Origin: Actinophytocola xinjiangensis
GTDB taxonomy: Bacteria; Actinomycetota; Actinomycetes; Mycobacteriales; Pseudonocardiaceae
Direction of reading: 5' to 3'
Assembly (NCBI RefSeq): GCF_001921215.1
Contig: NZ_MSIF01000010.1
Coordinates: 186,001-250,000, forward strand
DNA length: 64,000 nucleotides
Shown here: piece by piece, positions 44,404-64,000 of the stretch
Position numbering within the stretch: the first letter of the stretch is position 1
Layout: each line of letters opens with the position of its first letter
Notes under the pieces: model-generated
Databases searched by the model: none
Seen by the model: the letters and a program-made list of their open reading frames with translations, nothing else
Told to the model about the DNA's origin: nothing
Position numbers and translations under genes: made by a program

Positions 44404-44415
44404 TGGAGTCTGCCC

Positions 44416-44832: not shown

Positions 44833-44861
44833 GTCCACTCCTCGGACATCAATAGAAACGA

Positions 44862-44882
44862 TGTTACGAAACACTGTTACGA
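44862..44882. promoter_or_regulatory. Direct repeat, putative TetR operator
   Basis: TGTTACGA occurs at 44862-44869 and again at 44875-44882, a 13-base period, inside the 62-base gap between the divergent membrane-protein and TetR genes. TACACT at 44883-44888 could be a -10 for a leaderless tetR transcript starting at its GTG. Confidence 0.5.
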
Positions 44883-44894
44883 TACACTTGTTCC

Positions 44895-45823: not shown

Positions 45824-45912
45824 TCGACCCCACTTTTTTCGGCGAGCATGTCGAACCGTGTCCCCCCGCTCCGTCCCGGACACGACAACCGCGAAGCAAG
45901 GGAGACACGCAG

Positions 45913-46512: not shown

Positions 46513-46547
46513 CGGGTCTACGACAGTCATGACGGGTCTACGACAGT
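46510..46547. repeat. 20-bp-period tandem repeat ahead of protease locus
   Basis: TGACGGGTCTACGACAGT occurs at 46510-46527 and 46530-46547, exactly, with two bases between copies. A third partial GACGGGG follows at 46548. The first copy overlaps the stop codon of the reductase-like gene. The array lies about 60 bases upstream of the next possible gene start and may be an activator site. Confidence 0.7.
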
Positions 46548-46609
46548 GACGGGGAGTGGACACCGTCAGGTCTTGAGTGGAATGTCGCGCGCTTCCTAGC
46601 GTTCTGCCC

Positions 46610-46768
46610 GTGACCGAGCAGACGCCCGCCCCGGAGCCGGAACCCGGGCCAGGGGAGCAGCCACCCGTCGAGCCGGCCGTCGAGCCGGACCAGGAGGACG
46701 TCCCCGGCCCGTGGACCTGGCGGCTGGCCGGGGCGGCGCGACCCACTCCGACCAGGAGGTCCAGTTGA
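46610..46768 (+). CDS. Possible small Pro/Glu-rich protein coupled to subtilase gene
   Basis: A GTG at 46610 opens a 52-residue frame: a run rich in Pro and Glu, then VPGPWTWRLAGAARPTP. Its TGA overlaps the TTG start of the protease (TTGA). No ribosome site is seen before the GTG and no family is recognised. It could be a leader peptide for translational coupling or just an open frame. Confidence 0.35.
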   Translation: MTEQTPAPEPEPGPGEQPPVEPAVEPDQEDVPGPWTWRLAGAARPTPTRRSS

Positions 46769-49700: not shown

Positions 49701-51111
49701 GGCCACCACCCCGCGCCGCGACACCGCCGCGCGCCGGGCGGCGCCGGCCGAGTCGACCGCCCCGGCGGCGGCGCCGTGGACGCCGATCGCGAACTATCCG
49801 CGTCCGGTCATGGACAACACCGCGGTCACCGGTGACGACGGCACGGTGTACTCGTTCGGTGGTGAGTTCACCAACGAGGTGTTCGCGTTCGACCCGGTGA
49901 CCGCCGCGTGGCGGCCCCGCGCGGCGATGGGCAGCGAGCGGCAGAAGCCGGCGGCGGCGTTCGTCGACGGGAAGGCGTACGTCACCGGCGGTTGGTGGGT
50001 CAACGGTGTTCCGGTGCCGGAAACGGAGATCTACCACCCCGGCACCGACACCTGGACCACCGGCGCGCCCGTGCCGCGTGCCATGGCCGGGTCCGGCGTC
50101 GGCGTGGTCGGCGGGTCGATGTACGTGATCGGCGGGTGCGACACCAGCGGCTGCGGCCACGACGACGCGTTCGCCTACGACACGGGAAATGACACGTGGC
50201 ACCAGATCGCCGACTACCCGGAGCCGGTGTCCTGGTCGTCCTGCGGCGGCATCGGCGGGAAGCTCTACTGTGCCGGCGGTGTCACGGAAGCCAACGGCGC
50301 CACCACGAACGCGTACGTGTACGACCCTCGTGGTGGCGCGTGGGCGCCGGTGGCGGACATGCCGCTGGACCTGTGGGGCTCGGCGTACGCGTCGGTCAAC
50401 GGTCGCCTGGTGGTGTCCGGCGGTTCGGTGAACGCCGGCCGCGCGATCACCAACGAGGGCGTGGCCTACGACCCGGCGTCCGACGCGTGGACCCCGATCC
50501 CGAACTCCAACGAGTCGGTCTACCGGGGTGGAAGTGCGTGCGGCCTGTACAAGATCGGCGGCGCGGTCGCCGGCTACTCGTCCATCCCACGCGGCGAAGT
50601 CCTTCCCGGGTACGGGAACTGCGGGGCGTCGGCCGAACTGCCGTGGCTGTCGGCGGACGTCGAGACGTTCACCCTGGCCCCCGGCGCCAGCGTCCGGGTG
50701 GCCCTCACCTTCGACACGACGGCCCCGTCCGTCGACCAACCCGGCACCTACACGGGAAGGGTCACGGTCGCCAACGACTCCCCGTACGCCGCCGGCCTGG
50801 ACGTGACCATGAACGTCCAACCCCCGAAGACGTGGGGCAAACTCACCGGCACCATCCACGGCCAACGCTGCGACGGCACCCTGATCCCCCTGGGCGGCGC
50901 CACAGTGGCCCTGGACTCCTGGGCCACCACCCACACCTTGCGCACCGACCGCGACGGCCGGTACGCGCTGTGGCTCGACAAACGCAACAACCCGGTGTCC
51001 ATGATCGTCGCCCTGGACGGCTGGCGCCCCAAGGCGGTCCCGACCATCCGTATCAGGGCAGGTGAGACCACGACCGTGAACCTGACCCTCACCACCCTGT
51101 CCACCTGCTGA
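46765..51111 (+). CDS. Secreted multidomain subtilisin-like serine protease with Kelch repeats
   Basis: The 1,448-residue protein has a signal peptide (IRWFIVLVALVALVVP, cut near PAPAAD), a propeptide and an S8 catalytic domain with Asp190 (NIDTGVQ), His239 (SHGTHTMG) and Ser411 (GTSMATPH). Then follow carboxypeptidase-regulatory-like beta domains (GTLTGTVTDAATGDPVSNA and similar), a jelly-roll region near ITDNNGNGG, a second regulatory repeat, about five Kelch repeats (VYSFGGEF, AYVTGGWW, MYVIGGCD, LYCAGGVT, LVVSGGSV) and a final beta domain. The layout resembles the bacillopeptidase F group but is longer. TTG at 46765 is the best start: AGGAGG lies five bases upstream. It probably degrades proteins outside the cell. 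Confidence 0.93.
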   Translation: MRRPRPPIRWFIVLVALVALVVPTLSAARPAPAADDKISPQLVAALDAGPADFWIRFDRADTDTAAARAITDWVGRGQRVVDGLTDAAKTSQAAVRRLLDARGVSYQSFWVSNAILVRGGTMAAATDVARLAGVLDLRAPQVYERPAPVTSTPAAAVADGVEWGVANINADDVWAEFGTRGEGVVVGNIDTGVQYDHPALVASYRGNNGDGTFTHDYNWLDTSGQCAGTPCDADANGSHGTHTMGTMVGSDGPGNQIGVAPGARWIAANGCAVCSDVDLVESAQWMLAPTDADGGNPDVAKRPHVINNSLGSRSPSDDPFLEDVLTAWADAGIFGVWANGNLGPSCRTSSSPGSRTINYSVGAYDEDNVVASFSSRGPGQDGETKPNIAAPGVAVRSASQGNLYRLMSGTSMATPHVTGAVALLWSADPTLVGDVAGTRALLDLSAVDTADPSCGGPAGDNNSYGEGRLDALALLRASDAGGTGTLTGTVTDAATGDPVSNATVAVTGPVDRETTTAPDGTYSLVLLPGDYQLTVDAFGHDPVTRAASITVGGVTTVDVPLTATDTVTVTGSVLDGSGHGWPLHARVAVDGAPDRTVFSDPYTGRYRLDLPANAAHTLRVTAQYPGYLVSQQVVRTGVTDVERDVEVAVDAQACAAPGYDWAVRGTRTHFDEPTAPEGWTVTDNNGNGGVWAFDDPGAQTNRTGGSGGFAILDGTYYLPKQTRWDSTLTSPVADLSDEPAPALDLNVDYTSHSPGHATGEIDLSLDGGATWENVWRRLTGGQRHMPLHVDLPQAANQPQVQVRFRYTTMNTGWWQIDDVVLGREYCAPVRGGLVAGQVTDDNTEAYLAGARVTAAGLPAPVTSRATPEDPTLPDGYYWLFAPKGGSVEVSAARSNYVTDTRQVNVAPNWVTRQDFVLRAGYLVASTTDVTSTQRLGATTTKNVRFTNEGAAPVEVTLHEDGGNATILRAGGPAVNRVPAATTPRRDTAARRAAPAESTAPAAAPWTPIANYPRPVMDNTAVTGDDGTVYSFGGEFTNEVFAFDPVTAAWRPRAAMGSERQKPAAAFVDGKAYVTGGWWVNGVPVPETEIYHPGTDTWTTGAPVPRAMAGSGVGVVGGSMYVIGGCDTSGCGHDDAFAYDTGNDTWHQIADYPEPVSWSSCGGIGGKLYCAGGVTEANGATTNAYVYDPRGGAWAPVADMPLDLWGSAYASVNGRLVVSGGSVNAGRAITNEGVAYDPASDAWTPIPNSNESVYRGGSACGLYKIGGAVAGYSSIPRGEVLPGYGNCGASAELPWLSADVETFTLAPGASVRVALTFDTTAPSVDQPGTYTGRVTVANDSPYAAGLDVTMNVQPPKTWGKLTGTIHGQRCDGTLIPLGGATVALDSWATTHTLRTDRDGRYALWLDKRNNPVSMIVALDGWRPKAVPTIRIRAGETTTVNLTLTTLSTC

Positions 51112-51121
51112 CCTACCGTCC

Positions 51122-51160
51122 CCGCCACCCGGCCGGTGCACGACACTGGCCGGGTGGCGG
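51122..51160. terminator. Strong hairpin after subtilase gene, overlapping S51 peptidase start
   Basis: CCGCCACCCGGCC (51122-51134) and GGCCGGGTGGCGG (51148-51160) form a perfect 13-bp stem with a 13-base loop, 10 bases after the protease stop. Both candidate GTG starts of the next gene (51136, 51154) lie inside it. Confidence 0.75.
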
Positions 51161-51858
51161 CTCGCGTTCCAACGATCCTGGCGACCTCGATGGGGTTCAA
51201 CCGCGCCCGCGTCCCGTGGCGACCGGGTCCGGCGTTCACCTACGCCTTCGACCTGGCCGACGCCGCGTCGCGGCCGCGACTGTGCGTCGTGTCCAATGGT
51301 GACCAGCGGGACGGGTTCGACGCCGCGTTCGCCGGAAGCGGAGTGCGGGTCTCGCACCTGACCTACGACACGCCGGACGTGGCCGTGCGCCTGCGTGAGC
51401 AGGACGTGATCTGGGTCGACCGGGGCAGCGTGGTCGCCCTGCTGGCAGCGTGGCGCGCCAACGGACTCCCGGCCGTTCTCCGGGACTGTTGGCGGGCCGG
51501 GGTGGTCCTGGCCGGCGAGTCCGCCGGTTCACTGTGCTGGCACACCACCATGATCACCGACTCGCACGGCACGGTCCGGGGCATCGGTGGTGGCCTGGCC
51601 CTGCTGCCCTACGCCAACGCGGTCCACTACGACGAGGGCGACCGCCGGGCGGTGCTGCACCGCACGCTCGCCACCGAGGCCATGACCGGGTACGCCACCG
51701 ACACCGGCGCGGGACTGCACTACGAGAACGACACCCTCGTCGCCGCGATCGCCGACCGGCGCAACGCCGGCGCCTACCGCGTCACCCGCTCCGCGGACGG
51801 CCATCTCCAGGAGGAACGCCTCGACGTTCGCCGGCTGAAACGGGACAAGGGCGCGTAG
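51154..51858 (+). CDS. S51-family (peptidase E-like) serine peptidase
   Basis: The protein is about 234 residues long. It starts with a strand ending TILATSMGF and has the nucleophile elbow AGESAGSLCW, where the Ser is the S51 catalytic residue, followed by a GGGLALLPY segment. Peptidase E cuts Asp-X dipeptides; other members act on cyanophycin, so the exact substrate is open. The start is uncertain because GTG 51136 and GTG 51154 both fall within a strong hairpin; the conserved first strand rules out starting at ATG 51190. It converges on the TPR regulator with a 14-base gap. Confidence 0.85.
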   Translation: MAARVPTILATSMGFNRARVPWRPGPAFTYAFDLADAASRPRLCVVSNGDQRDGFDAAFAGSGVRVSHLTYDTPDVAVRLREQDVIWVDRGSVVALLAAWRANGLPAVLRDCWRAGVVLAGESAGSLCWHTTMITDSHGTVRGIGGGLALLPYANAVHYDEGDRRAVLHRTLATEAMTGYATDTGAGLHYENDTLVAAIADRRNAGAYRVTRSADGHLQEERLDVRRLKRDKGA

Positions 51859-51872
51859 CCGCCGCGTCGGGG

Positions 51873-53171
51873 TCAACCGGACAGCCGGTGGGCGAGATCG
51901 GCTATCTCACCACGAACGTCGGCGCGACCTTCCCACCGACCCAGCACACGCAACGTTCGTCGGACCTCACTCAATGCCGAATGTGAACCGATCTGATCAT
52001 GGGCGTCCAGCGCCTCCCAAGCGAGGCGGACGGCGTCGGCCGGTTGGCCCGCGTTGGCGTGTGCACGGGCCAGCTTCGCACGGCTGATCGTCGCCGTGCG
52101 CGGTGACGAACGGGCCAGTCCGTCAAGTCTGGATCGCAGCGCGCTGATGGCGCTGACACCACGGCCGAGGTATATGTCGCAGGTCGACTGGTAGACGGCG
52201 TGCAGGTCGTTGCCCACAACACTGCGCTGCCCCAGATGGGTCTCGTCGTCCCGCGCGGGTCGGGCGAGCAGGCGCATCGCCTCGTCCAGTGCTCGCGCGC
52301 TGGCCTCGGGCTGCCCCGCGAGGGCGTAGCCCATGGCTGTCTGCTTGGCAGCCAGTCCACGCACCCACGACAGCTCGGACATGTCCAGCACTGGCGAGAC
52401 GACGTCGACCGCGCGCAGCCCGTCGCCGGTGAAGGTGGTGACCACCATGGCGCGTCGCACGAACGTGTAACCCACCATCGGGTCCCACCGAGCCGACGAC
52501 GCCCACTGGGCGGCTCGGTCGATCCAGTACAGCGCACCGTTCGGGTCGCCGCTCTCCTCGCATGCCCAGGACAGCGACTCGGCGAAGCGAGCCTGCATGA
52601 CCGTGTACCCGCGTCGGCTGCCCGCAGGGGCGCGGTGACGCAGCCTGTCCAGCATCGCCACCTGACCGGTCATACCGTCGATCAGTCGCGCTGGCGGCAG
52701 CGCTCGTGCCGCAGTGGAGAAACCTTCGAATGCCCGTTCGATCGATGCCAGCGTGCTGCCGTCGTCCCCGACATCGGTCGAAGTCAGGAGGTGGTCAATC
52801 TTGTCGGCCAGTGCGCCGCCGAGCGCCCCGATACTCAACCCGGCCAGCAGGTCACGGCGGGAGATCGGCATCGTCGCCCCTCCTGTCGGCAGTCGCAGCA
52901 CCAGCATGTCGTCACTCGTGTCCGTGTCGGGTGCGCGTACAAGGTCGCTGTGCGGAGGTGTGGTTCCCACCAGCGCGGTGATGGCCCCGCCCGTGTCGTA
53001 GACGACGTCCAGGGCGTCGGCCAGCCACGGCTGGATCCGTCGACGCCCACTTTCCACATAGGACAACAGCGATTCGGCACAGCCAGCCTGCCTGGCCACA
53101 GCGGCCAACGTCAGTTTCCTGGAGGTGCGCAGTTCCCGCAGCATCACACCGAATCTCTGGTCACCAAGCAC
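51873..53171 (-). CDS. XRE-family regulator with TPR-like C-terminal region
   Basis: The 432-residue protein has an N-terminal helix-turn-helix (FGVMLRELRTSRKLTLAAVA then AESLLSYVESGRR), a linker with ISRRDLLAGLSIGALGGALA that looks like a Tat or hydrophobic segment, and a helical repeat region to the end (for example MQARFAESLSWACEESGDP, ALAGQPEASARALDEAM). Such proteins are common in Streptomyces and relatives and often sit beside small unknown genes. GTG 53171 with GGGGAG five bases upstream is chosen over the longer frame. The signal-like segment in the middle is odd for a DNA-binding protein. Confidence 0.87.
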   Translation of the reverse strand: MLGDQRFGVMLRELRTSRKLTLAAVARQAGCAESLLSYVESGRRRIQPWLADALDVVYDTGGAITALVGTTPPHSDLVRAPDTDTSDDMLVLRLPTGGATMPISRRDLLAGLSIGALGGALADKIDHLLTSTDVGDDGSTLASIERAFEGFSTAARALPPARLIDGMTGQVAMLDRLRHRAPAGSRRGYTVMQARFAESLSWACEESGDPNGALYWIDRAAQWASSARWDPMVGYTFVRRAMVVTTFTGDGLRAVDVVSPVLDMSELSWVRGLAAKQTAMGYALAGQPEASARALDEAMRLLARPARDDETHLGQRSVVGNDLHAVYQSTCDIYLGRGVSAISALRSRLDGLARSSPRTATISRAKLARAHANAGQPADAVRLAWEALDAHDQIGSHSALSEVRRTLRVLGRWEGRADVRGEIADLAHRLSG

Positions 53172-53258
53172 GTGCGCTCCCCGGCAGGGCCTTGACAGTT
53201 CCTCACAGCCGAGCGCGATCACTCGACCACACTCAGTCAAGCACAGGAGTATGGATTC
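53172..53258. promoter_or_regulatory. Divergent promoter region with two -35-like boxes
   Basis: TTGACA at 53192-53197 faces right and TTGACT (minus strand, 53235-53240) faces left. The -10 boxes are poor (around 53215-53220). The region separates the TPR regulator and the 89-residue gene. Confidence 0.4.
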
Positions 53259-53528
53259 ATGACCAACGACCTACCGGCGATGGCACTGATCGCGGACCTT
53301 GCCACCGCGAGTCAGCAACTCGCCGTCTACGTACTTCGTGTCCTGGACGCCCAGGCCGGGCGGGCGGAACCGCCATCGCCGGTCACGGAACAGGTGCTGG
53401 CCGCTCGGCTGGTTGAGCTGGGGAACGCCCTGCGACCGCGTGTGGGATGCGCCTCGTCTCGTCGGAGCAGTGAGTCATGGACCCCGTGGGTGGAGAGTCG
53501 CGCCGCGATCTACTCCGTCGACGCCTGA
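53259..53528 (+). CDS. Small protein of unknown function
   Basis: The 89-residue protein has a helical N-terminal half (MTNDLPAMALIADLATASQQ, then VYVLRVLDAQAG) and a basic, Ser-rich end. The ATG has AGGAG nine bases upstream. It is divergent from the TPR regulator and followed 30 bases later by another small gene. Its role is not recognised. Confidence 0.6.
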   Translation: MTNDLPAMALIADLATASQQLAVYVLRVLDAQAGRAEPPSPVTEQVLAARLVELGNALRPRVGCASSRRSSESWTPWVESRAAIYSVDA

Positions 53529-53558
53529 CAAGACCTTCTGAAAGGGGAGTACCTCGAC

Positions 53559-53864
53559 ATGCACGCTTCGTTGTTCAGTCTCGTCACAGCCGACGACCCC
53601 ACTGTCGTTTTCGGGTGGGGAATGGAGATTGTCGACCACCAGGACGGTGACGAGAGCAGGAAGACCATCGTCCACATCGGCAGCCCGAAGGGCCAGGGAA
53701 CTGTCTCCATGCATGAGTCGGCAGAACACGCACGAAATCGTTGGAGCATGGTTGTGCCCGTGGACATCGTCTGGGATGCCGACGACTGGGCCGATGCGAT
53801 ACGTCTCACGTCGGCCAACGTGCTCGATCGGGACGGATCCCCTTACCGCCACCCCCAACTGTGA
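53559..53864 (+). CDS. Small acidic protein of unknown function
   Basis: The 101-residue protein starts MHASLFSLVTADDPTVVFGW and has a predicted beta-rich middle and an acidic WDADDWADA stretch. GGGGAG lies upstream of the ATG. It is likely in one transcript with the preceding small gene and ends at a strong hairpin. No family is recognised. Confidence 0.6.
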   Translation: MHASLFSLVTADDPTVVFGWGMEIVDHQDGDESRKTIVHIGSPKGQGTVSMHESAEHARNRWSMVVPVDIVWDADDWADAIRLTSANVLDRDGSPYRHPQL

Positions 53865-53866
53865 CA

Positions 53867-53888
53867 TCCCGCCCGGCACCGGGCGGGA
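53867..53888. terminator. Bidirectional terminator between convergent genes
   Basis: TCCCGCCCGG and CCGGGCGGGA form a perfect 10-bp stem separated by CA. It starts two bases after the stop of the plus-strand gene and ends 12 bases before the stop of the minus-strand gene. Confidence 0.8.
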
Positions 53889-53900
53889 ACGGGAGACGGG

Positions 53901-54536
53901 TCAGGCTCGCTGGAAGTCCTCCAGTTGTCTGATCCGCCGGCGGATCTCCTCGATCTCGTCCTCGTCGACGTAGTCGGCTTCCAGGCGGTAGGACTTCGCC
54001 AGTTCCTCCTCGAGTTCGTCCAGGTAGGCGGTGTGGTGCTGGTGCAGCATGGCGAGCAGGGAGTCGGCGCGCCGCACCACCTGGTCGGGGTCGGTGGGTT
54101 CCATGGGGGCGCCGTAGATCGTCGATCGGCCGGCGGCCAGTTCGGTCAGGCGGTAGCAGACCACCAGTTCGTCGTCGGTGACGTCGATGCCCGGGCGGAT
54201 GAGGAACAGCAGCGGGAGCAGGTCGGGGTCGAAGGCGCGGAAGTGTCGCTCCATCGGGTCGTTGGTGTCCGGTTCGGCGGCGGGGCCGCCCCGGCTCGGT
54301 GGTGTCGTCAGTCGCCAGGGTTGGTTGGTCCACATGGACAGCAGGCGCAGCGTGTAGGGGTCGGCGTCCGCGATGACGATCAGTTCGCGGGGGAAGGGGA
54401 CCCCGTAGCACTCGCGGAGGACCTGCCCGGTGGTCAGTCCGTTCTCGTGCAGTGCCCGTGCGAGGCGGGCCATCGCCGGATAGTCCCGTCCGGCAGCCTC
54501 GGTCCGCAACCGTTCGAGTTCGCCACCCTCGACCAC
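53901..54536 (-). CDS. Unknown protein coupled to the large eCIS-cargo-like gene
   Basis: The 211-residue protein is helical at the start (ELERLRTEAAGRDYPAMARL), has a middle with CYGVPFPRELIVIADADP that faintly recalls SUKH-type immunity folds, and ends in a charged coiled coil (YLDELEEELAKSYRLEADYV). The start GTG at 54536 has GGGAGT upstream and lies four bases after the stop of the 1,534-residue gene, so the two are surely co-expressed. An immunity protein or a loading chaperone are reasonable guesses; the sequence does not decide. Confidence 0.75.
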   Translation of the reverse strand: MVEGGELERLRTEAAGRDYPAMARLARALHENGLTTGQVLRECYGVPFPRELIVIADADPYTLRLLSMWTNQPWRLTTPPSRGGPAAEPDTNDPMERHFRAFDPDLLPLLFLIRPGIDVTDDELVVCYRLTELAAGRSTIYGAPMEPTDPDQVVRRADSLLAMLHQHHTAYLDELEEELAKSYRLEADYVDEDEIEEIRRRIRQLEDFQRA

Positions 54537-54540
54537 GTCG

Positions 54541-57500
54541 TCACTCCCGTCCGGGTGGGCGGTCCAGTTCGCGCAGCAGCGCACGCAGTTCCGCCCAGGT
54601 CTTTCTGAGTTTTTTCGATGTCAGCGCGCCGATGATGTCACGGGTGACGTCCTGAGCCGAGGACAGTGCCTTCTGGAAGTCCCGGTTGCCCTGGGCCATC
54701 GGCGATCCCGCCTCTTTCTCGACCGCTTTGGCCATGTCCTGGATGATCTTGCGGATCCGGGGGTCGCGGGCGGACAGGCCGGGGTTGTCGATCATCAGGA
54801 TGATGACCTGTTCGACGTGCCGGAAGATCTGCGTCTGGATCCTGCCCTTTCCTTCCGGCGCGATCCTCGGGTTGGCCATGAACAGCTGTTGCGCCAGCTT
54901 GCGTTCGCTCGCCATCGTCTGGGACTGGACGAACAACGCGTAGGCCGGTTTGCCCTGGTTCTCGATCGCCTTGCGCGCCTCCTCGATTCCCAGCTGGAAC
55001 CTTCCGGGATCGGTGGTGACCGAACCGCGTGGGTCGTAGAGGTCGGTGAAGTTGCCACCGAACACCTTCTTCAGCCATTTGCGGAAGTTGTGTCCCTCCG
55101 ACGGCCCGACCCCGAAGGGCATGGCGACCCGGGCCGTGTCGATGGCGTGCTGGTCCAGGCTGGCGAACAGGTCGAGGCCGAACTCCGGCGCCCACACCGT
55201 CACGAGGGTGCTCGGCTCGGAGGGATACACCATCCCGGTCTGCCGTTTGCTGACGGCGGCCCGGATCGCGCGGTCGATGCGGTTGGCGAGGGTGGTCAAC
55301 TGCACGGTGAACGGGTCGGTCGTCTTCCAGTCGAACCGTTCGAAGTCGTAACCACCGATGATCATCATCGGGTGGCCCTTGATCGTCCGGAGGATCTCGT
55401 CGTAGGCGGCGAGAATGCCCCGGCCCTTCGGCGCGGTGGCGGTGCTGTCCGGGTCCTGGAGCAGCACCCGGACCGCCGCGTTGGTCGTGCTGAGGATCCG
55501 CACCGCCTCCCGGGTGTGGGTGGACTTGAAGACCTCTCCCCGGATCAGGCCGTAGGGCACCGAGCCGCGCAGCCCGGCCTTCTCCTTGGCGCGCGCGGCG
55601 TTCCTGCCCGTCTCGTCCAGTTCCTGGTACGCGGCGCGCACCGTCGTGAACGGCACCGACTTCCTGCGCTTGCCGGAGATGTCCATCCACCGGGGCGTCC
55701 AGGTGAAGCCGAAGGCGATCATGAGCAGTTCGGCGGGATGGTTGACCGACCGGATGGCGGCGATGACCGGTTCCCTGCCCCGCTTCTTGTCCTTGGGGTC
55801 CAACGCCTCGGCGGAGTTGACGCCGATGATGACGGCGGTCCTGATCGCCGACGCCGGCTCCTCGGTCGATCCGGCCCACGCCTCGTCGAGGTACCGGGCG
55901 GCCAGCTGCGGGTTGCGGCCGATCTCCTCGGGGAGCGCGGCCATGGTGATGACGTAGGCCGTCCGGTGTTTCTCGCCGGCGGGGTTGGTGATCGCGTGCA
56001 GGGAGCCCTTGAGTTGGCCGACGTCGTCGAACGCCATGGACTTGGCCGGCGGGCCGGGTTCGTAGGGGAAGCTCAGGTCCACTTCCTTGGACCGGCGTTT
56101 GGGGTTGATGGTCACCTCGATGAGGTGCAGGTTCCCCGACTTCTCCAGAGCGATCCTGGTCAGCCGGTGTCGCCGTTTGATGGCCGGCAGTCCCTTGCGC
56201 ACGGACGCGACGGTGGCGCCCTCGGCGCCGATCAGCTTGTTGGCGTCGCGGAGCGCGGCGGCGAGCGAGCGCTTGTCGTCCTTGTCCCGGCGGCGCTTGT
56301 CCCGGGGACGATCCTTCCGTGGGCGTGTGCGCGCCGGCCGCCGTGGTCGCCTTGGCCTGTGGTCCCGGTCCTTGTCCCGACGGGGTTTCCTGGGCTTCTT
56401 TGGTTTCTTGGGCTTGAGTTTGGCGGCGAGTTTCTTCAGCAGGCCCTGGATCTTGGTGATGACCTTGTCGATGGCGCGGTTCACCGGGCGGGACAGGCGT
56501 TGGAAGATCTGACGTACCCGTCCGGCGATGCCGCCGACCCCCAGGATCGCGGCCAGGGCACCGATGAGTACCGGGATCGACCGGGCCAGGGCCTTGACGA
56601 TCGTGCCGGTGACGTTCGCTGTTCCTCGGGCGATGGCGATGACCGCGTCGAGGACGGCGTTGACGAACTCGATGATCTGCCGGCCCTGGGTGACGATGAA
56701 CCGGATGATGTCGATGATCATCTTGCAGGCGCGGATGAACGCCGACGCCGGGTTGAACAGGGACACGATCCAGGTGATGCCGGCGATGATGATCGTGGGC
56801 AGCAGGTAGGACACCAGGTTCTTGATGAGGTCCTTCTTGAGGTCGCCGACCCGCCCGCGCAGGTCGTTCCACATCCCGGCCACGCCGCGTTTGCGGACCT
56901 CGACGACCAGGGGGATGGCGTCCTTGCCTGTTTCGGCGGCCGTCATCGTCTTCGGGGACACGCGTTTCGCCAGGCGGGCGCGGATGTTGGCCCAGGACAG
57001 GCCCAACAGGCCCGCCAGCAGGACCACGATGCCCAGGACGTCGAACGTCGCCGGGAGTTGGAGGCCGCCGCCGACGCCTGAACCGAGGAGCCACGCGAGG
57101 ACACCTTGTTGCAGGTACCGGCCGGCGTCCTTCATGAAGGCCCGCAGGCCGCCGGCGACGCCGGTGATCAGCCGGCCCAGGAAGCCGACCGGGTCCTTGA
57201 GGATCAGGCCGACGGCCGACGCGGCCTTGCGCAGGACGCCCATCAGCATCCGGCCCAGTTCCTTGATCGTCTCGATGGCGCCCTTGACGGCGGCGACCGC
57301 CTTGGACGCGAGGCCCTTGTTCTTCTCCTTCTCCTCGGCGATCTCCTTGTCGACGGCCTTGACCGCGTCGGTGTACTTCGTGGCGAGGGTGTCGACGAGT
57401 TCGGTTCCCTTGTCGTCGACCGAATCCCTCAGTTCGTCGAACTTGCCGGCGAAGTCCGACGCCGCCTCCCGGCCGATGGCCTTCAGGTCCTTGGGCAGGT

Positions 57501-59145
57501 CGTCGACCGCCTGCTTCAGCTCCGCGCGGCCCTTGGCGATGCGGTCCTTGGCGCGTTTGAGTTCGCGGACGACCGTGTCGGCCACGTCGGAGATGACCTG
57601 GCGCATGGCGGTCAGGTAGTTGTCGCGGGCGCGTTCGTAGATGCGGTTGGCCTCGTCGGGCAGGTCGGCGAACAGGTCCTTCACCCAGCGGGCCTTGCCG
57701 CGCAGACCCGAGTAGCGGCGGTCCTTGTACTCCTCCATCCCGCGCGTGTGTTCGGCGGTGAACTGGGTCCGCGCCGTCTTCTCGCCCTTGGTGAACTGGT
57801 CGTCGACCGCCTCGTCCAGGTCCTTGAGGATCTTCTCGACATCGGTCTTCGTGCGGTCGAACACCTTCTGCAGCAGCGCGGTGACCTTCGTCCGCCGGTC
57901 CTCGTCGCGGTCCTTCGTGCCTTTCTTGCCGGTGGTGACCTGGCGGCCGGTGGTGGCCCGGCTGGCGTGGATCGCGCCCATCGCCGCCGTGCCGGACGCC
58001 GCCGCCGCGCCGCGCACCTCGCCCAGCTCGCGGGACTCGCCGGCCCGCATCCGGCGCGGCGCGGTCGCCGAGTGCTTCTCCAGCGCCTTCTTGTCCCGCA
58101 CCGCCTTGTCGAACGACGGCTCGCGGGAGTTCTTCAGCGACAGCTGCTTCTCGGTCACCCCGGCCGAGTCGAGCTGCCGGTCGACCTTCGCCGGGCCGGC
58201 CGACAGGTCGGTCGCCGACTTCGGCAGCGGGTCGGGGGTGGCCTGGCGGGGGTTGGGCGTGCCGGGGCGTCCGGGCAGCTGGTCGGCGGCCAGCGGCACC
58301 ACCGTCTTGGCGTCCGGGGCCGGCTCGGGGGTCGCGGCGGTGGTGTCGGCGATCTCGGCCGACGAGGCGTCCTTGCCCTCGCCGACCTTCCCCGCGACCT
58401 CGGTCTTGACCTCCTCGGCCTTGCCGGAGTCACCGAACTTGTCGGCCTCGTCGAGGTTCTTCGGGGCGCGGTCGCGGATCGCCTTCTCCACCGCCGCGAT
58501 GAACGACTGCTTGTCGAACTCCTTGGGCTGGGCGGCGTCCATGTCCTCGGCGTGCGCCGCCTTGCCCCTGGCCTCGCGATCGTCCGGCGGGGGCACCGCC
58601 GCGCCCTGCGCCGCACCGGCCTCCACCGCCGGCGGCGGATGGCTGGACGCCACGCGGCGCTTCTTGGCCGCCACGTCCTGCTTGAGCGCCTGGAACTTCG
58701 GGTCGGCGCCCGGCGAACGCGGGCCGGTCCGCTCCTTCTTCTCCGGGCGCTCGCCGCGCTCCCGCTCGCCGGTGTCCTTCACCTCCGGCGCCCGGGCCGG
58801 CGGCGCCTTCGCCTTGCGCACCGGCTTGGTCGCCGGCCGTTTCTCCGGCGGCCGGGGCCGCTCGGGGGCCGTCGCCGGGGCGGCGGTCGCCCCGGCGGCG
58901 GTGACCGCCTGGTTGCCGACCAGGTCCTGGCCGGCCAGCAGCATCCGGGTGCCCCAGGCCGACGGGCTGGGCGGCCGGCCACCCAGCGCGGTCGTGACCG
59001 CGGCGTTGCCCACCTGCGTCGCGGCCGCGACCACCGCCGCCGGGCCCGGTGACATCGCCGTCCCGCCGCTCGGTTCCCGCAGGTCCGGGACCGGCGCGGG
59101 CGTCGTGGAGCGGCGCGGCGCGGCGATCCTGACCGGTAGCGGCAT
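54541..59145 (-). CDS. Giant eCIS-cargo-like protein, putative polymorphic toxin
   Basis: The 1,534-residue protein has no signal peptide. The N-terminus carries two GNxAV motifs (residues 46-50 and 77-81), as seen in proteins of extracellular contractile injection loci, then a Pro/Lys/Ala-rich disordered part. Residues about 410-690 are long charged helices. A hydrophobic core (about 690-880) includes LPATFDVLGIVVLLAGLLGL, GITWIVSLFNPASAFIRACK and PVLIGALAAILGVGGIAG; I recognise this stretch from DUF4157-bearing eCIS-associated proteins, although DUF4157 itself is absent. A very basic Lys/Arg/Pro linker (about 905-960) leads to a C-terminal region that opens with a LHLIEVTINPKRR link and then about 450 residues I cannot assign. 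This order (trafficking head, helices, hydrophobic core, linker, variable end) is typical of large polymorphic toxins. ATG 59145 with GGGTGG upstream is preferred. No tail-sheath or spike gene is in the window. Confidence 0.85.
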   Translation of the reverse strand: MPLPVRIAAPRRSTTPAPVPDLREPSGGTAMSPGPAAVVAAATQVGNAAVTTALGGRPPSPSAWGTRMLLAGQDLVGNQAVTAAGATAAPATAPERPRPPEKRPATKPVRKAKAPPARAPEVKDTGERERGERPEKKERTGPRSPGADPKFQALKQDVAAKKRRVASSHPPPAVEAGAAQGAAVPPPDDREARGKAAHAEDMDAAQPKEFDKQSFIAAVEKAIRDRAPKNLDEADKFGDSGKAEEVKTEVAGKVGEGKDASSAEIADTTAATPEPAPDAKTVVPLAADQLPGRPGTPNPRQATPDPLPKSATDLSAGPAKVDRQLDSAGVTEKQLSLKNSREPSFDKAVRDKKALEKHSATAPRRMRAGESRELGEVRGAAAASGTAAMGAIHASRATTGRQVTTGKKGTKDRDEDRRTKVTALLQKVFDRTKTDVEKILKDLDEAVDDQFTKGEKTARTQFTAEHTRGMEEYKDRRYSGLRGKARWVKDLFADLPDEANRIYERARDNYLTAMRQVISDVADTVVRELKRAKDRIAKGRAELKQAVDDLPKDLKAIGREAASDFAGKFDELRDSVDDKGTELVDTLATKYTDAVKAVDKEIAEEKEKNKGLASKAVAAVKGAIETIKELGRMLMGVLRKAASAVGLILKDPVGFLGRLITGVAGGLRAFMKDAGRYLQQGVLAWLLGSGVGGGLQLPATFDVLGIVVLLAGLLGLSWANIRARLAKRVSPKTMTAAETGKDAIPLVVEVRKRGVAGMWNDLRGRVGDLKKDLIKNLVSYLLPTIIIAGITWIVSLFNPASAFIRACKMIIDIIRFIVTQGRQIIEFVNAVLDAVIAIARGTANVTGTIVKALARSIPVLIGALAAILGVGGIAGRVRQIFQRLSRPVNRAIDKVITKIQGLLKKLAAKLKPKKPKKPRKPRRDKDRDHRPRRPRRPARTRPRKDRPRDKRRRDKDDKRSLAAALRDANKLIGAEGATVASVRKGLPAIKRRHRLTRIALEKSGNLHLIEVTINPKRRSKEVDLSFPYEPGPPAKSMAFDDVGQLKGSLHAITNPAGEKHRTAYVITMAALPEEIGRNPQLAARYLDEAWAGSTEEPASAIRTAVIIGVNSAEALDPKDKKRGREPVIAAIRSVNHPAELLMIAFGFTWTPRWMDISGKRRKSVPFTTVRAAYQELDETGRNAARAKEKAGLRGSVPYGLIRGEVFKSTHTREAVRILSTTNAAVRVLLQDPDSTATAPKGRGILAAYDEILRTIKGHPMMIIGGYDFERFDWKTTDPFTVQLTTLANRIDRAIRAAVSKRQTGMVYPSEPSTLVTVWAPEFGLDLFASLDQHAIDTARVAMPFGVGPSEGHNFRKWLKKVFGGNFTDLYDPRGSVTTDPGRFQLGIEEARKAIENQGKPAYALFVQSQTMASERKLAQQLFMANPRIAPEGKGRIQTQIFRHVEQVIILMIDNPGLSARDPRIRKIIQDMAKAVEKEAGSPMAQGNRDFQKALSSAQDVTRDIIGALTSKKLRKTWAELRALLRELDRPPGRE

Positions 59146-59327
59146 CGGGCGTCCACCCCCGTACACCGACGTCGAGTGGCTCGCAGGATCGCAGCCGGGC
59201 CGCCACCGGGGCGTCACCGGCACGTCACCGGATCCGCGAGATTGTCAGACAGCTGTCAGGTGAGATCCGGGGCCGGGCACCTGAGGATGGCTCGGGAAGC
59301 AGACGAGACCCGGGAGTCACACGTCCG

Positions 59328-60002
59328 ATGTACCGCTACGAGCAGCACTGTCCGATCGCCAGGGCGGCGGAGGTGATCACCGAGCCGTGGACCCTGCTCA
59401 TCGTGCGTGAGCTGCTCAGCGGCGGCGAGTCACGCGCCGAGCTGGCCAGGGGGCTGCCGAAGATCTCCGCGTCGATGCTGCGCTCGCGGCTGCGCACCCT
59501 GGAACGGCACGGCGTGATCACCCACGAACCCGACCCGCGCGGCGAGCGGCGCTACCAGCTGACCACCGCCGGCCAGGAGCTGCGGCCCATGGTCGAGCAC
59601 CTCGGGCGGTGGGGGCAGCGCTGGCTCGACCAGCCGCGCGTCGGCGACCTCGACCCCGAACTGCTGGTCTACGACATCTGCCGGGGCATCGACAGCGCCC
59701 GGCTGCCGGCCGACCCGCTCACCGTGGAGGTCGACTTCGCCGACGTGCCGGCCCCCCGGCGCTGGTGGCTGACCCTCTCGGCCGCCGAGGTGGCCGCCGA
59801 CCAGACCGCCCGCCGCGACGCCTCGGTCCGCCTGACCTGCACCCTCGGCGGGCTCGCCGGGGTGTGGCTCGGGCACCAGAGCTGGTTGCAGGCCGTGCGC
59901 GACCGGATCATCATGCTCGCCGGTGACCGCGCCGCCGTCCGCTCACTGATCGACTGCCTCGGCGTCAGCCGCTACGCCACCGCCGGCCGGGGCGACGGCT
60001 AG
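59328..60002 (+). CDS. HxlR-family regulator with C-terminal SCP2-like domain
   Basis: The 224-residue protein has a winged helix in the first 100 residues (CPIARAAEVITEPWTLLIVR, LPKISASMLRSRLRTLERHG) typical of HxlR/MarR-like regulators. The second half (VEVDFADVPAPRRWWLTL, then GLAGVWLGHQSW) resembles a sterol-carrier-like fold often fused to such regulators. A Cys near the N-terminus (QHCPIA) is the usual redox-sensing position of this family. It is divergent from the giant gene and followed after 11 bases by the Imm51-type gene. Confidence 0.88.
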   Translation: MYRYEQHCPIARAAEVITEPWTLLIVRELLSGGESRAELARGLPKISASMLRSRLRTLERHGVITHEPDPRGERRYQLTTAGQELRPMVEHLGRWGQRWLDQPRVGDLDPELLVYDICRGIDSARLPADPLTVEVDFADVPAPRRWWLTLSAAEVAADQTARRDASVRLTCTLGGLAGVWLGHQSWLQAVRDRIIMLAGDRAAVRSLIDCLGVSRYATAGRGDG

Positions 60003-60013
60003 GATCCGCTCCC

Positions 60014-60331
60014 GTGTCCATCACCGTGCACGACCACGACGGCAGCCACTCGTTGACCTTCGACACCGGTGTCCTGGCCGCCGACCCGGCGGTCGCCGCC
60101 GCCGGGCACGAGCCCAACGGCTACTTCTGGGAAGGTCTCGTGCAGTTCGCCTGGCCGGAGATCGCCGAGCGGCTCGAGTTCGACAGTGAGGCCGGCATGT
60201 TCTGCGCGATCGGCGGCCAGGAGGACCTCGCGCGGCTGCGCGCCGCCGTCGAACCCGTGATCGCCAGCCCCGACGCGGTCCGCGACATCATCGCCCGCGC
60301 CCAGAGCGCCGGTGTCGAGTTCGACGACTAG
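60014..60331 (+). CDS. Imm51-type immunity protein
   Basis: The 105-residue protein has the Imm51 pattern: GYFWEGLVQFAWPEIAERLE, FDSEAGMFCAIGGQEDL, and a helical end with SPDAVRDII. Imm51 proteins neutralise toxins of polymorphic systems, but no cognate nuclease is adjacent; the giant eCIS-like gene 870 bases away is the nearest toxin candidate. It starts at GTG 60014. Its TAG stop shares the bases CTAG with the stop of the convergent Lrp gene. Confidence 0.75.
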   Translation: MSITVHDHDGSHSLTFDTGVLAADPAVAAAGHEPNGYFWEGLVQFAWPEIAERLEFDSEAGMFCAIGGQEDLARLRAAVEPVIASPDAVRDIIARAQSAGVEFDD

Positions 60332-61353
60332 CTGGTCGCCTCGCCCCTGGCCAGGGCGACCCGGGGTGGGCCGGTCTGCTCGGCCACCTGGTCGCGCCAC
60401 CACGGGGTCTCCACGAAACCGCGTTTGAGGACCAGTAGCTCCACCGAGGCGTTCCAGCCGGACACGCCGTCGAGGTTGGCCAGGGTGGCGGTGGTGAAGT
60501 CGAACAGGCCCTTGGTCGAGTCGGTGATCACCTCGCACAGCAGCGAGTTGCCGTCCAGGGTGGCGGCCAGGTAGCGGACCGAGCGGTGGTGGTGCAGCGC
60601 CGAGGCGACCGCGTTCAGCTTGGCCGGCTCGACCTGCACCCACAGCAGCGTCTCGGCCTCCAGCCCCAGCACGGGCGCCGGCACGATGGTGAACACCGAC
60701 GCGCACCCGTCGGCGATCATCCGCTCGAAGCGGCGGCGCACGGTGGACTCGTTGAGCTCCAGCACGCCGGCGATGTGTTTGAAGCTGGACCGGCCGTCCT
60801 CGCGCAGCAGGTCGATGATCGCCCAGTCGACCCGGTCGAGGTGGTGCGGCGCGCACAGCAGCGGCTCGGCGGTGTGCGGGGTGGACGACCGGTCGTCGAT
60901 CAGCTGCCAGTACCAGTCGGTCGACACCTTGTACACGTGCAGCAGCAGGTCGCTGTACCAGCGCTGCACGCCGTCGATCTGCTGGAGCTCCAGCATGGTG
61001 TGCGGGTAGCGGGTCGGCTCGGAGTTGACCACCAGCTCCAGCGCGATGTCGTAGGTGCCGGTGATCAGCGACGCCCAGCGCACGTCCTCCCGGGCGACCA
61101 GCTGCTCGGCCACGGCGATCTGGGTGCCGGGCCGGCAGCCGATCCTGGTGAAGAACGTCTCGACCGGGCCGTTGCTGCCCAGGCTCGGGGCCACCGACAC
61201 CCGCAGCAGCCGGTCGGAGATCAGCTGCTGCACGCGGCGGGCAACGGTGGGCACCGAGGTGTCCACGGCCGCCGCGATCGAGGTCCAGCTGGCCCGCCCG
61301 TCGGACTGGAGTGCGACGACGATCTGCCGGTCGAGTTCGTCCAGCGACCGCAT
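60328..61353 (-). CDS. Lrp/AsnC-family regulator with two HTH units
   Basis: The 341-residue protein has two Lrp-type helix-turn-helix units: LDRQIVVALQSDGRASWTSI with VPTVARRVQQLI, and VDWAIIDLLREDGRSSFKHI with ESTVRRRFERMI, each followed by an effector-type beta domain. Double-headed Lrp proteins are common in actinobacteria. It is the last gene of the peptide-use operon; its ATG overlaps the hydrolase stop (TGATG). It probably senses an amino acid set free by the enzymes of the operon and controls them. Confidence 0.93.
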   Translation of the reverse strand: MRSLDELDRQIVVALQSDGRASWTSIAAAVDTSVPTVARRVQQLISDRLLRVSVAPSLGSNGPVETFFTRIGCRPGTQIAVAEQLVAREDVRWASLITGTYDIALELVVNSEPTRYPHTMLELQQIDGVQRWYSDLLLHVYKVSTDWYWQLIDDRSSTPHTAEPLLCAPHHLDRVDWAIIDLLREDGRSSFKHIAGVLELNESTVRRRFERMIADGCASVFTIVPAPVLGLEAETLLWVQVEPAKLNAVASALHHHRSVRYLAATLDGNSLLCEVITDSTKGLFDFTTATLANLDGVSGWNASVELLVLKRGFVETPWWRDQVAEQTGPPRVALARGEATS

Positions 61354-62237
61354 CAGGCGGGGGACACCTCGCGCAGGAACTCCCGCACCGTTTCCGTCCA
61401 CAAGGCCGCCTCCTCGATCTGCGGCGAGTGCCCGGACTTCTCGAACACCACCAGCCGCGCCCGGGGGATGAGCCTAGCGATCTGCTCGCTGCACTCCACC
61501 GGCGTGATCCAGTCGGTGCGCCCGACGGTGACCAGCGTCGGCGCGGTGACCTTCGGCAGGTCGGGCTTGAGGTCGTAGTTCGGGATGTTCACCGAGAACG
61601 CGTAGTTGTGCGCCTCGTAGCGGTACGGGGTGGCCGCCACGCGCGCCTCGACGGCGTCCGGGTCGTAGTGGTAGTCGTAGAGCGGCAGGATCTCGCGCCA
61701 GCAGTCCCGCAGGTCCGCGTCGTCACGGACGGTGCCGTCGAAGATCCTCGTCAGCTTCTCCCGGTCGACGGTGATCCGCGACGAGGCGAGCGCGTTGGCC
61801 AGCGCCTTGTCCTCGTTGGAGTTGTCCGGCGAGGTGTCGCGCAGCACCAGGGCGCTGACCCGGTCGGGGTAGCGGATGGCGTACTCCATGGCCATGAACC
61901 CGCCGTAGGAGCCGCCGGCCATGATGACCTGCTCGGCGCCGATCCACTGCCGCAGCCCGTCGATGTCGGCGGCCCACTGCTCGTGGCTGAAGGTGCCGTT
62001 GCCCTCGCTCTGGCCGGACCCCCTGGCGTCGAACACGACGACCCGGTAGGTGTCGGCCAGCCGGCCGAAACTGGCCTTGGGTTCGGCGCGGGAACCGAGG
62101 CCGGGGGCGCCGTGGTGGGCGATCACCACGGGCGCGCCGGGCGGGCCGAGCACCTCGACCGCCAGCCGGTTCCCGTTGATCTCGACCATCTCGGCGCCGT
62201 CGCCGGCGGCGGCGAACTCCGGTGACACTGTGGACAC
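61353..62237 (-). CDS. Alpha/beta hydrolase, proline iminopeptidase-like (S33)
   Basis: The 294-residue protein has the oxyanion segment HHGAPGLGS, RVVVFDARGSGQSEG, the nucleophile elbow GGSYGGF, an acid in VGRTDWITP and the catalytic His in SGHSPQIEE. The HGxPG and DQRGxGxS-like motifs match S33 prolyl aminopeptidases. It is cytosolic by lack of a signal. The start is GTG at 62237 with AAAGGAG upstream. The gene lies 29 bases after the M24 gene in the same operon, which fits removal of N-terminal residues from imported peptides. Confidence 0.9.
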   Translation of the reverse strand: MSTVSPEFAAAGDGAEMVEINGNRLAVEVLGPPGAPVVIAHHGAPGLGSRAEPKASFGRLADTYRVVVFDARGSGQSEGNGTFSHEQWAADIDGLRQWIGAEQVIMAGGSYGGFMAMEYAIRYPDRVSALVLRDTSPDNSNEDKALANALASSRITVDREKLTRIFDGTVRDDADLRDCWREILPLYDYHYDPDAVEARVAATPYRYEAHNYAFSVNIPNYDLKPDLPKVTAPTLVTVGRTDWITPVECSEQIARLIPRARLVVFEKSGHSPQIEEAALWTETVREFLREVSPA

Positions 62238-62266
62238 TTCGTGGAACTCCTTTCCCTACAGGGCGA

Positions 62267-63445
62267 TCACAGGGGAATCACGCAGTCGTCGAGCGTGCGT
62301 GGGTAGGCGGTGAGCGGGCGGGAGCCGGTCTCGGTGACCAGCATGCTGTCGGAGATCCGGTAGCCGGCGTGGCCGGGGACGTAGATGCCCGGCTCGTTGG
62401 ACACGACCATGCCCGGTTCCAGCAGCGTGTCGTCGCCGTCCTCCAGCCACGGCGGCTCGTGCATGCCAAGGCCGATGCCGTGGCCCTGCCGGTGGCGCAG
62501 GTACTTCCCGAACCCGGCGTCGCGGATCACCGCCAGGCACGCGGCGTTCGCCGCCCGGCACTGCGCACCCGGCCGGATCGCCTCGCCGCCGATCTGCTGG
62601 GCCAGGCGCACGGTGTCGTGGTAGCGGCGCTGCTCGGCGGTGGGCTCGCCGAGGACGAACGTGCGCTCGCCCTCGACGTAGCGCCCGCCGACCGCGCAGC
62701 CGAGGGAGAGCATGAACGTGTCGCCGGGCGTGAGCCGGTAGGCCGAGGGCAGGCCGTGCGGGTAGGAGGAGTTGGCGCCGGCGTAGACCAGGCCGCCGGC
62801 CAGCAGCCCGACCACGACGACGTCGGTGTGCTCGGCGTACATCATGCCGGTGCCGACCTGGCCGACGTGCGCGGCCAGCTCGGCCTCGCTGGGCAGCTCA
62901 CCGCCGCCGGCGACCGCCTCGGTGATCAGCGCGACGCCCTCGGTGAGCATCACGTCGGTGATCCGCGCGGCCTCGGCGTGCAGCGCGATCTCGGCCGGAT
63001 CCTTGACGTAGCGGCACACCGTGACCAGCTCGGTCGGCACGAGGTCCACATCGGACAGCGCGGCCGACGCGGCGGTGAGCCGGTGGTGGGTGATCGAGGT
63101 GGTGTGCCCGGCCCGCCGCCGGCCGGGGCCGATGACACCGGCCAGGGCGGCGAAGGGCGGCAGCACGCCCGGGTACTCCGGGTAGGACACCAGCTCGGCG
63201 GCCGCGTGCTGGGACCGCGCGTACTCCCGCTCCAGCTCGGGCACCAGCAGCACGCACCGCCCGCCGGTCTCCAGCCACACCGCGACCGGCCGCTCACACG
63301 GGTGGTGGAAGAACCCGGTCAGGTAGGCCACGTCCTCCGGGTCGTCGGTGAGGATCGCGTCCAGGCCGGCCTCGGCCGCCCTGGCGCGCACCCTGGCCTG
63401 GACCGAGTCGAAGAAGGACGGTCCGAGTCGTTGGGAGAAGGCCAT
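62267..63445 (-). CDS. M24-fold hydrolase, creatinase-like (metal ligands replaced)
   Basis: The 392-residue protein has the creatinase N-terminal domain and a pita-bread C-terminal domain with GHGIGLGMHEPP, LEPGMVVSNEPGIYVPG and GYRISDSMLV. In metal-dependent Xaa-Pro peptidases two Asp, one His and two Glu bind metal. Here the first Asp is Ser (in MLSLGCAVGG), the second is Glu (in RYVEGERTF) and the last Glu is Ser (in RISDS). The SLxC...GERTF pattern resembles creatinase, which works without metal. It could therefore cut an amidino or amide compound and not peptides. The ATG at 63445 has AGGA upstream. It sits between an oligopeptide permease and an S33 hydrolase gene. Confidence 0.87.
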   Translation of the reverse strand: MAFSQRLGPSFFDSVQARVRARAAEAGLDAILTDDPEDVAYLTGFFHHPCERPVAVWLETGGRCVLLVPELEREYARSQHAAAELVSYPEYPGVLPPFAALAGVIGPGRRRAGHTTSITHHRLTAASAALSDVDLVPTELVTVCRYVKDPAEIALHAEAARITDVMLTEGVALITEAVAGGGELPSEAELAAHVGQVGTGMMYAEHTDVVVVGLLAGGLVYAGANSSYPHGLPSAYRLTPGDTFMLSLGCAVGGRYVEGERTFVLGEPTAEQRRYHDTVRLAQQIGGEAIRPGAQCRAANAACLAVIRDAGFGKYLRHRQGHGIGLGMHEPPWLEDGDDTLLEPGMVVSNEPGIYVPGHAGYRISDSMLVTETGSRPLTAYPRTLDDCVIPL

Positions 63446-63456
63446 GCGCGAAAGTC

Positions 63457-64000
63457 CTATCGGTTGCGGCGGGGATTGCGGGCGTCGTTGTAGGCGGTGG
63501 ACAGCATCGTCGCGGCCAGCACCAGCAGGAAGATCGCCAGCGACGGGAACAGCGGCAGCCACCACGCGGTGGACATCGCGCCGGCCTGCTGGGCCTCGTA
63601 GAGGATCCGGCCCCACGACCAGGTGTTCGGGTCGCCAAGGCCCAGGAACGCCAGGCCCGCGGCGGAGAGCACCGCGCGGGACGCGGTGAGCACGACCGAC
63701 ACCAGGATCAGCGGCATCACCGCCGGCACCACGTGCCGGCGGATGATCCACGCCGGGGAGCTGGTCATCAGCCGCGCGGCGTCCACATAGGGCATCCGCA
63801 CGACCGACAGCGCCTGCGAGCGCACCACGCGGGTGACCTCGGGCCAGGAGAACGCGGCGATGACGAAGATGATCGTCACCGTGCTCGGCCCCACCAGCGC
63901 GGCGACCAGGATCATCAGCGGCAGCACCGGCAGCGACAGCGTCAGGTCGACGATCACGCCGACCACGGCGTCCACCCGCTTGAAGTAGGCGCCGACGACC
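63457..64000 (-). CDS. Oligopeptide/dipeptide ABC transporter permease (DppC-type), 5' end outside window
   Basis: At least 181 residues are visible, and the frame stays open to the right edge. It has several membrane segments (LTLSLPVLPLMILVAALV, TIIFVIAAFSW, LVSVVLTASRAVLSAAGLA, FPSLAIFLLVLAATML) and the cytoplasmic EAA loop ARLMTSSPAWIIRRHVVPAV that docks on the ATPase. The signature FLGLGDPNTWSWGRIL is typical of DppC/OppC permeases. The partner permease, ATPases and binding protein should lie to the right. The M24 gene begins 11 bases after its stop. Confidence 0.93.
   Translation of the reverse strand, partial: VVGAYFKRVDAVVGVIVDLTLSLPVLPLMILVAALVGPSTVTIIFVIAAFSWPEVTRVVRSQALSVVRMPYVDAARLMTSSPAWIIRRHVVPAVMPLILVSVVLTASRAVLSAAGLAFLGLGDPNTWSWGRILYEAQQAGAMSTAWWLPLFPSLAIFLLVLAATMLSTAYNDARNPRRNR

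Follow-up and report, generated by a model that had tools for sequence, protein, structure and literature searches.

The window, a 64,000-nucleotide stretch of the Actinophytocola xinjiangensis genome, encodes a giant protein that we interpret as a cargo effector of a contractile injection system (CIS). The protein is related to tape measures, carries a swappable C-terminal payload with a payload-specific partner, and would be served by a machine encoded in trans, most likely on contig C67 of the same genome. From sequence comparisons, we place the probability of this reading at about 75%. It draws on a conserved N-terminal part joined to variable C-terminal parts, linkage of relatives to C67-type clusters, the particle genes on C67 itself, the pairing of payloads with partner genes, and the occurrence of the same payload on DUF4157 proteins. 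Counting against it are the 17 of 34 close-clade loci with no CIS gene in the fetched flank, one genome (G193) with a close N-terminal core and no C67 marker, the concentration of 66 of 79 payload-similar pairs in one class, tape-measure matches that are possibly compositional, and a payload that matches no enzyme family. A preliminary description of the gene as a DUF4157-lacking cargo of eCIS type that depends on a distant machine is thus supported, given the CIS clusters in the genome and the homologs located beside a CIS cluster. It can be refined, in that the giant belongs to a clade with swappable payloads and is followed by a payload-matched partner gene with a probable role in immunity.

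In the mechanism we propose, residues 1 to ~910 would function in loading and translocation. The N-terminal GNxAV motifs would be followed by a long charged helical stretch lying in the tube, the hydrophobic core would insert into a membrane on ejection, and the Lys/Arg linker would carry the exchangeable payload, which is probably an enzyme with a metal site of the DxD type. The gene that follows would encode a payload-specific partner, most likely an immunity protein, and the machine would be provided in trans, most likely by the two-sheath, DUF4157-free cluster on C67.

Recognition of CIS effectors relies mostly on DUF4157 or on cluster position. Searches based on either feature would miss this clade, because its members lack DUF4157 and can sit far from CIS genes; its conserved N-terminal part provides a handle for listing CIS arsenals in actinomycetes. 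The two-sheath CIS is linked here to effectors with matched partner genes, and two unannotated families, one of payloads and one of partners, are brought to light. The matched partner genes bear on the question, raised in PMC8213781, of why immunity genes appear to be missing for most eCIS toxins. We found no study of two-sheath CIS in the open-licence PMC literature, and no description of the clade or its two-sheath link in open-licence PMC main texts, although supplementary tables or eCIStem may list it.

Gene and domain organization

The reading frame of the giant is open from 59223 to 54541. Homologs start at positions coinciding with the ATG at 59145, which is preceded by a GGGGGTGGA stretch, and the coordinates in Table 1 are thus considered right. 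A chance origin is excluded by conservation in two homologs that align along almost the entire length (L007 at 66% and L009 at 52% identity) and by a second copy, L035, in the same genome.

Table 1. Features of the giant gene, its neighbor and the small GNxAV genes (window coordinates unless a locus is given)
Feature	Coordinates	Strand	Remarks
Giant effector-like ORF	54541..59145	-	1534 aa + stop, one intact frame
GNAAV motif	58996..59010	-	residues 46-50
GNQAV motif	58903..58917	-	residues 77-81
Charged, helix-rich conserved stretch	57166..58725	-	residues 141-660; helicity judged from composition
Hydrophobic core	56428..57228	-	residues 640-906; three strongly hydrophobic segments
Lys/Arg-rich linker	56272..56427	-	residues 907-958; 56% K+R
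Pre-payload module	56086..56271	-	residues 959-1020; also in members with other payloads
Payload	54544..56085	-	residues 1021-1534; without known family
DPD	55447..55455	-	residues 1231-1233; both aspartates invariant in 17 aligned payload cores
Payload-matched partner gene	53901..54536	-	211 aa, GTG at 54536
~100-aa GNxAV gene	L012:14585-14881
~100-aa GNxAV gene	L019:14131-14430
~100-aa GNxAV gene	L023:14856-15140
~100-aa GNxAV gene	L025:14829-15158
~100-aa GNxAV gene	L107:8845-9147
~100-aa GNxAV gene	L069:10343-10648

The elements first described, namely two GNxAV motifs, charged helices, a hydrophobic core with GITWIVSLFNPASAF, a Lys/Arg linker and an unassigned C-terminal end, are all present. 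The strongly hydrophobic segments comprise residues 693-723, 773-804 and 849-877, and GITWIVSLFNPASAF begins at residue 789. PHROG tape-measure families match residues 425-910, including the core, with a best E of 1.3e-6 that possibly reflects composition in part. Searches of the whole chain against Pfam and NCBIfam gave nothing above cut-off, no Pfam, NCBIfam or PHROG family accounts for the C-terminal end, and the N-terminal part has no solved relative at E 0.01. Matches to apolipoprotein, UvrA and ATP synthase were below cut-offs, look like helix composition, and were rejected.

Pfam confirmed that DUF4157 is missing from the chain. No CIS genes were found in the 20 kb of the window tested (44001-64000), so the reported absence of structural genes holds there; it does not hold for the genome, which contains CIS genes. 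Similarly, the gene is an orphan in place only, as clade members elsewhere directly adjoin a CIS cluster.

A family with exchangeable C-terminal ends

A homolog scan of genome contigs identified 21 loci, all from actinomycetes. Identity to the giant over the matched stretch is 52-71% in the 20 loci that have a long ORF, and the match fades at or soon after the linker in all except L007 and L009. The window payload is common to L007, L009 and L011; the remaining loci have other ends, some of them in pairs. Across the family, the N-terminal ~910 residues are kept and the C-termini form many unrelated classes, a constant N-terminal part with an exchangeable C-terminal part as in polymorphic toxins. 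Pfam found no match for eight of ten close-clade ends and placed the end of L015 in the APH kinase family above cut-off. Below the Pfam cut-off are matches to Endonuclea_NS_2 (L025) and HNH (L107) in the close clade, and APOBEC-like (L114), GH-E (L115) and HNH (L119) matches among diverged members; the ends of L105, L111 and L112 have no Pfam match. A cyclase-like reading of the L012/L020 payload derives from a motif, found nothing in Pfam, and is not claimed.

In a tree of the N-terminal core (37 rows, comprising 34 close-clade and 3 of 13 diverged members), the six payload classes represented by two or more rows (24 rows in all) require a minimum of nine changes, versus five if each were one clade, a count made without shuffle comparison. 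The window payload occurs at three places on this tree. Duplicates L106 (= L025) and L110 (= L018) were left out of the linkage and pairing counts described below, and L172 and L008 come from a single genome. L010, with its frame broken in the linker, is included in the linkage set and tree and absent from the 46-member pairing set; L027, an N-terminal piece only, is absent from all three. At L010 (9914-13018 and 12901-13845, Spongiactinospora rosea) the frame of the giant stops within the linker and a frame resembling the pre-payload module continues out of frame, due to a real or a sequencing frameshift. The short ORF at L027 (10001-11051, Streptomyces iranensis) matches residues 64-352 only, at 80% identity, and is probably a decayed copy.

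Relation to known effectors

Diverged relatives of the N-terminal core were found at 11 loci (33-48% identity). Six of these (L116-L120 and L122, 33-41%) are flanked on one side by a DUF4157 gene and on the other by a sheath gene of the type encoded on contig C71 of the A. xinjiangensis genome; the other five have no CIS gene in 20 kb. L123 (25%) has eCIS_core in the same chain, and for L124 (26%) tblastn gave a match to DUF4157. The same method found neither a DUF4157 nor a sheath gene in the flanks fetched for the 34 close-clade loci.

PMC13277306 reports this neighborhood for Sle1 and Sle2, with the two genes in tandem, whereas the diverged relatives here are antiparallel to the DUF4157 gene. 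The giant resembles the Sle1-type effectors described there in having no DUF4157 in the chain, a long N-terminal helical part, a remote tape-measure likeness (which may be partly compositional) and a variable C-terminus, to which one published case adds a toxicity-relieving downstream gene. In addition, its N-terminal core is homologous, at 33-41% identity, to proteins in the Sle1 neighborhood, a comparison with Sle1 by position, not by sequence. The close clade differs in being linked to another, two-sheath cluster and in having flanks without DUF4157 or sheath genes, so that its members are not found beside a DUF4157 (Sle2) gene and upstream of a sheath gene. Tme of S. davawensis, as far as the accessible portion of PMC11126660 describes it, shares a tape-measure-like region, hydrophobic helices, a basic linker and a C-terminal effector domain, but combines an in-chain DUF4157 with an EndA-like nuclease, neither of which is present in the giant; the relatives L123 and L124 have a Tme-like DUF4157 fusion.

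Because diverged relatives occur in these neighborhoods and the chain lacks DUF4157, we assign the giant to the wider Sle1/Tme kind as a separate clade, and so it would represent a clade of tape-measure-related CIS effectors that is new and free of DUF4157. The constant N-terminal part, pre-payload module, exchangeable C-terminal part and matched downstream gene recall polymorphic toxin systems, from which, going by the part of PMC3482391 consulted, the giant differs in its carrier, which is of the CIS/tape-measure type. The giant lacks the DUF4157 that defines the eCIS toxins treated in the available parts of PMC8213781 and PMC11297309, but its payload also occurs behind DUF4157 in two proteins (L082, by Pfam; L177, by eye), in agreement with the earlier eCIS cargo assignment.

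A payload-matched gene behind the giant

The partner gene starts 4 nt behind the giant's stop. Homologs of it lie directly behind all 12 close-clade giants with the window payload (window, L035, L007, L009, L011 and L168-L174), in L169, L171 and L172 as part of a longer called ORF, and no further homologs occur among ORFs of at least 80 aa in the fetched loci. The partner protein belongs to no known family (best PDB match E 1.5). Among the 46 members, 79 locus pairs have similar payloads and 76 of these also have the downstream gene in common, with 66 of the 79 falling inside the 12-member class of the window payload. The overlap reached at most 29 in 5000 label permutations, shuffles that ignore kinship. 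The three exceptions (L109-L121, L115-L122 and L119-L122) all involve diverged members, and ten further pairs have the downstream ORF alone in common, six of them among L116, L117, L120 and L122.

A payload-specific gene thus sits next to the effector gene, and we infer from this arrangement a polymorphic effector/immunity pattern, noting that a payload-specific chaperone would look the same. The gene at 53901-54536 is a probable immunity gene. There is precedent for immunity in this position, as the gene behind a Sle1-type effector of M. eburnea relieves its toxicity according to the available text of PMC13277306.

Exchanged payloads and matched partners typically mark conflict between strains, and this weighs against a reading in which the giant acts on its producer rather than on a foe, with the particle staying in the mycelium, the effector tuning development, and the partner limiting self-damage. 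We regard this as somewhat doubtful, despite the homology of the giant's N-terminal core to proteins in the Sle1 neighborhood and the published activity on the producer of Tme in S. davawensis (PMC11126660) and Sle1 in S. lividans (PMC13277306); the latter source describes Sle1 as without an immunity gene in its cluster. It is rather unlikely that the partner is instead a payload-specific chaperone or loading adaptor. Payload-specific pairing fits a chaperone as well as immunity, the partner has no known family, and distant payload carriers lack the gene, all of which would suit such a role, but the relief of toxicity by the M. eburnea gene (PMC13277306, available part) favors immunity.

Linkage to a two-sheath injection cluster

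The whole-genome search for CIS genes that had been proposed revealed two clusters, with sheath genes on C71 and C67. DUF4157 ORFs are encoded on C71, C6 and C10, and the C67 cluster is without DUF4157. The latter includes Pvc16_N, two sheaths (the second below cut-off), a T4 gp19-type tube, CIS_tube with LysM, a GPD-like hub (below cut-off), two Baseplate_J proteins, spike-like and gp25-like frames read by eye, an ATPase gene (its L012 homolog is an AAA protein with a winged-helix domain) and a ~100-aa protein with GNAAV. The DUF4157 ORFs on C6 (102893-103108) and C10 (146709-146921) lie on contigs without a sheath match and are further candidates for orphan cargo.

A C67-type ATPase (72-77% identity) is encoded in the fetched flank, the length of which differs, at 15 of the 34 close-clade loci (L012, L016, L019, L020, L023, L025, L105, L107 and L168-L174), including all seven Streptomyces loci with the window payload (L168-L174). 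L024 (58% identity in the N-terminal core) is near a C71-type ATPase, L009 keeps the small CIS gene only, and the fetched flanks of 17 loci, including the window and L035, contain no CIS genes. In A. vancoresmycina, the cluster could be followed from a Pvc16-like gene and the sheath up to a convergent gene of the giant family.

Among 200 genomes of the host's taxonomic family, the N-terminal core has a match in 19 (six at ≥61% identity) and the C67 marker gene in ten (five strong, E below 1e-140). All five genomes with strong marker matches are among the six with a close core; the sixth is G193, which has no C67 marker. Marker and core are 6-7 kb apart in G029, G107 and G162, and on different contigs in the A. 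xinjiangensis genome and G119; G107 and G119 are not independent of the 21-locus scan, as they contain L025 and L018. A sheath gene turned up in all 16 genomes searched (covering the 21 loci) and in 3 of 14 controls, a weak comparison because sheaths are common in such genomes and the controls are mostly not actinomycetes. Absence of eCIS from related genomes, which would have spoken against the cargo assignment, was thus not observed.

The machine could alternatively be the C71 cluster, which is SLP/CISSc-like and has DUF4157. This cluster is present in the genome, diverged homologs of the giant sit inside clusters of its type, and L024 is near a C71-type ATPase. We nevertheless judge it unlikely, given that 15 close-clade loci are linked to the C67 type and one to the C71 type, and that orthologs of the C67 marker track the close N-terminal core. 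A mainly structural role of the giant, as tape measure of the C67 particle with an accessory, non-toxic C-terminal part, would suit its length, its hydrophobic segments and the tape-measure matches to residues 425-910 but is highly improbable, since the C-termini vary with matched downstream genes, some ends match nucleases, deaminases or a kinase family, many copies are far from any CIS gene, and particles without Sle1 looked normal according to PMC13277306.

GN.A[VI] is present near the N-terminus of 45 of the 46 members, within the first 135 residues in 43; L111 has none, and the position of the motif further in for L016 and L118 is put down to called starts that are too early. Outside the giant family, the motif was found in the ~100-aa CIS gene and four other genes among 659 examined (the 26 genes listed are 16 family members, six small CIS genes, one of them at a duplicate locus, and the four others). 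DUF4157 proteins also carry GNxAV. We suggest that the motif may participate in loading, and the ~100-aa protein of the two-sheath cluster is a possible adaptor. GNxAV was not printed together with DUF4157 or contractile injection among the matches listed from open-licence PMC papers. Tentatively, and with more chance of being wrong than right, we propose DUF4157-independent loading, in which the two-sheath CIS would recognise the GNxAV segment with the ~100-aa protein as adaptor or competitor, the cargo would be both a tape-measure-derived translocator and a polymorphic effector, orphan loci would be served in trans, and the payload would be a new enzyme family with its own immunity family.

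Distribution and possible activity of the payload

Pfam searches with five and then 17 payload members yielded nothing credible, and PDB profile searches gave chance-level matches only (the best of 33 was uL3, E 0.12; another gave VPS29, E 0.13; one gave none). A match of the payload to a non-toxin enzyme or structural protein, named at the outset as evidence against a toxin, was not found in the profile searches. We presume that the order IGxN, R, DxD, GGY, Y..EP is GT-A-like. A DxD is conserved, with both aspartates invariant in the 17 cores; DxD is not specific to GT-A. Alignment by hhalign to 19 GT2 domains of the same genome gave a probability of 0.1%, compared with 99.9% for one half of the GT2 set against the other, a positive control that says nothing about reach across GT-A families. 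Neither GT2 profiles nor Pfam nor PDB thus support a GT-A glycosyltransferase, and a GT-A-like enzyme is a guess; that the payload is an enzyme whose DxD forms a metal site is probable. PMC3482391 gives [DNE]xxR and YxDxD for Tox-Glycosyltransferase, and the giant's payload has at most the R-then-DxD order in common with it and no detectable profile.

A profile of five payloads searched against 394 genomes of the host's class recovered the two copies in this genome and two distant carriers, L082 with eCIS_core and L081 with a Peptidase_M91 domain. Of 392 genomes of the genus of L082, 18 have a match: seven are full-length close-clade carriers, four are other clear carriers, four are weak matches in very long ORFs and three have the pre-payload module only. 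The window payload was not confirmed in viral contigs. Searched against the plasmid collection, the window payload gave no record and two distant carriers gave three each. The payload on the DUF4157 protein L177 comes from a Streptomyces record of the plasmid collection; other plasmid-borne carriers are a protein of Candidatus Megaera polyxenophila and a Streptomyces ORF of very great length. Those distant carriers that lack the partner gene (L081, L082, L147, L148 and L175-L179) may, speculatively, have other targets.

The Rickettsiales plasmid protein (L147:3284-5467; AP017965.1, MPCS_01591) has the payload core and no visible CIS-type N-terminal part. L148, L178 and L179 are Streptomyces ORFs of >2700 aa with stretches matching the payload. 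In the window itself, a 101-aa ORF near the partner gene (53559-53864, plus strand) has a weak PHROG match (phrog_31541, E 0.0012), and positions 2-26829 contain a pair of neighboring open frames (4701 and 4240 aa) that are as long as modular biosynthetic enzymes commonly are.
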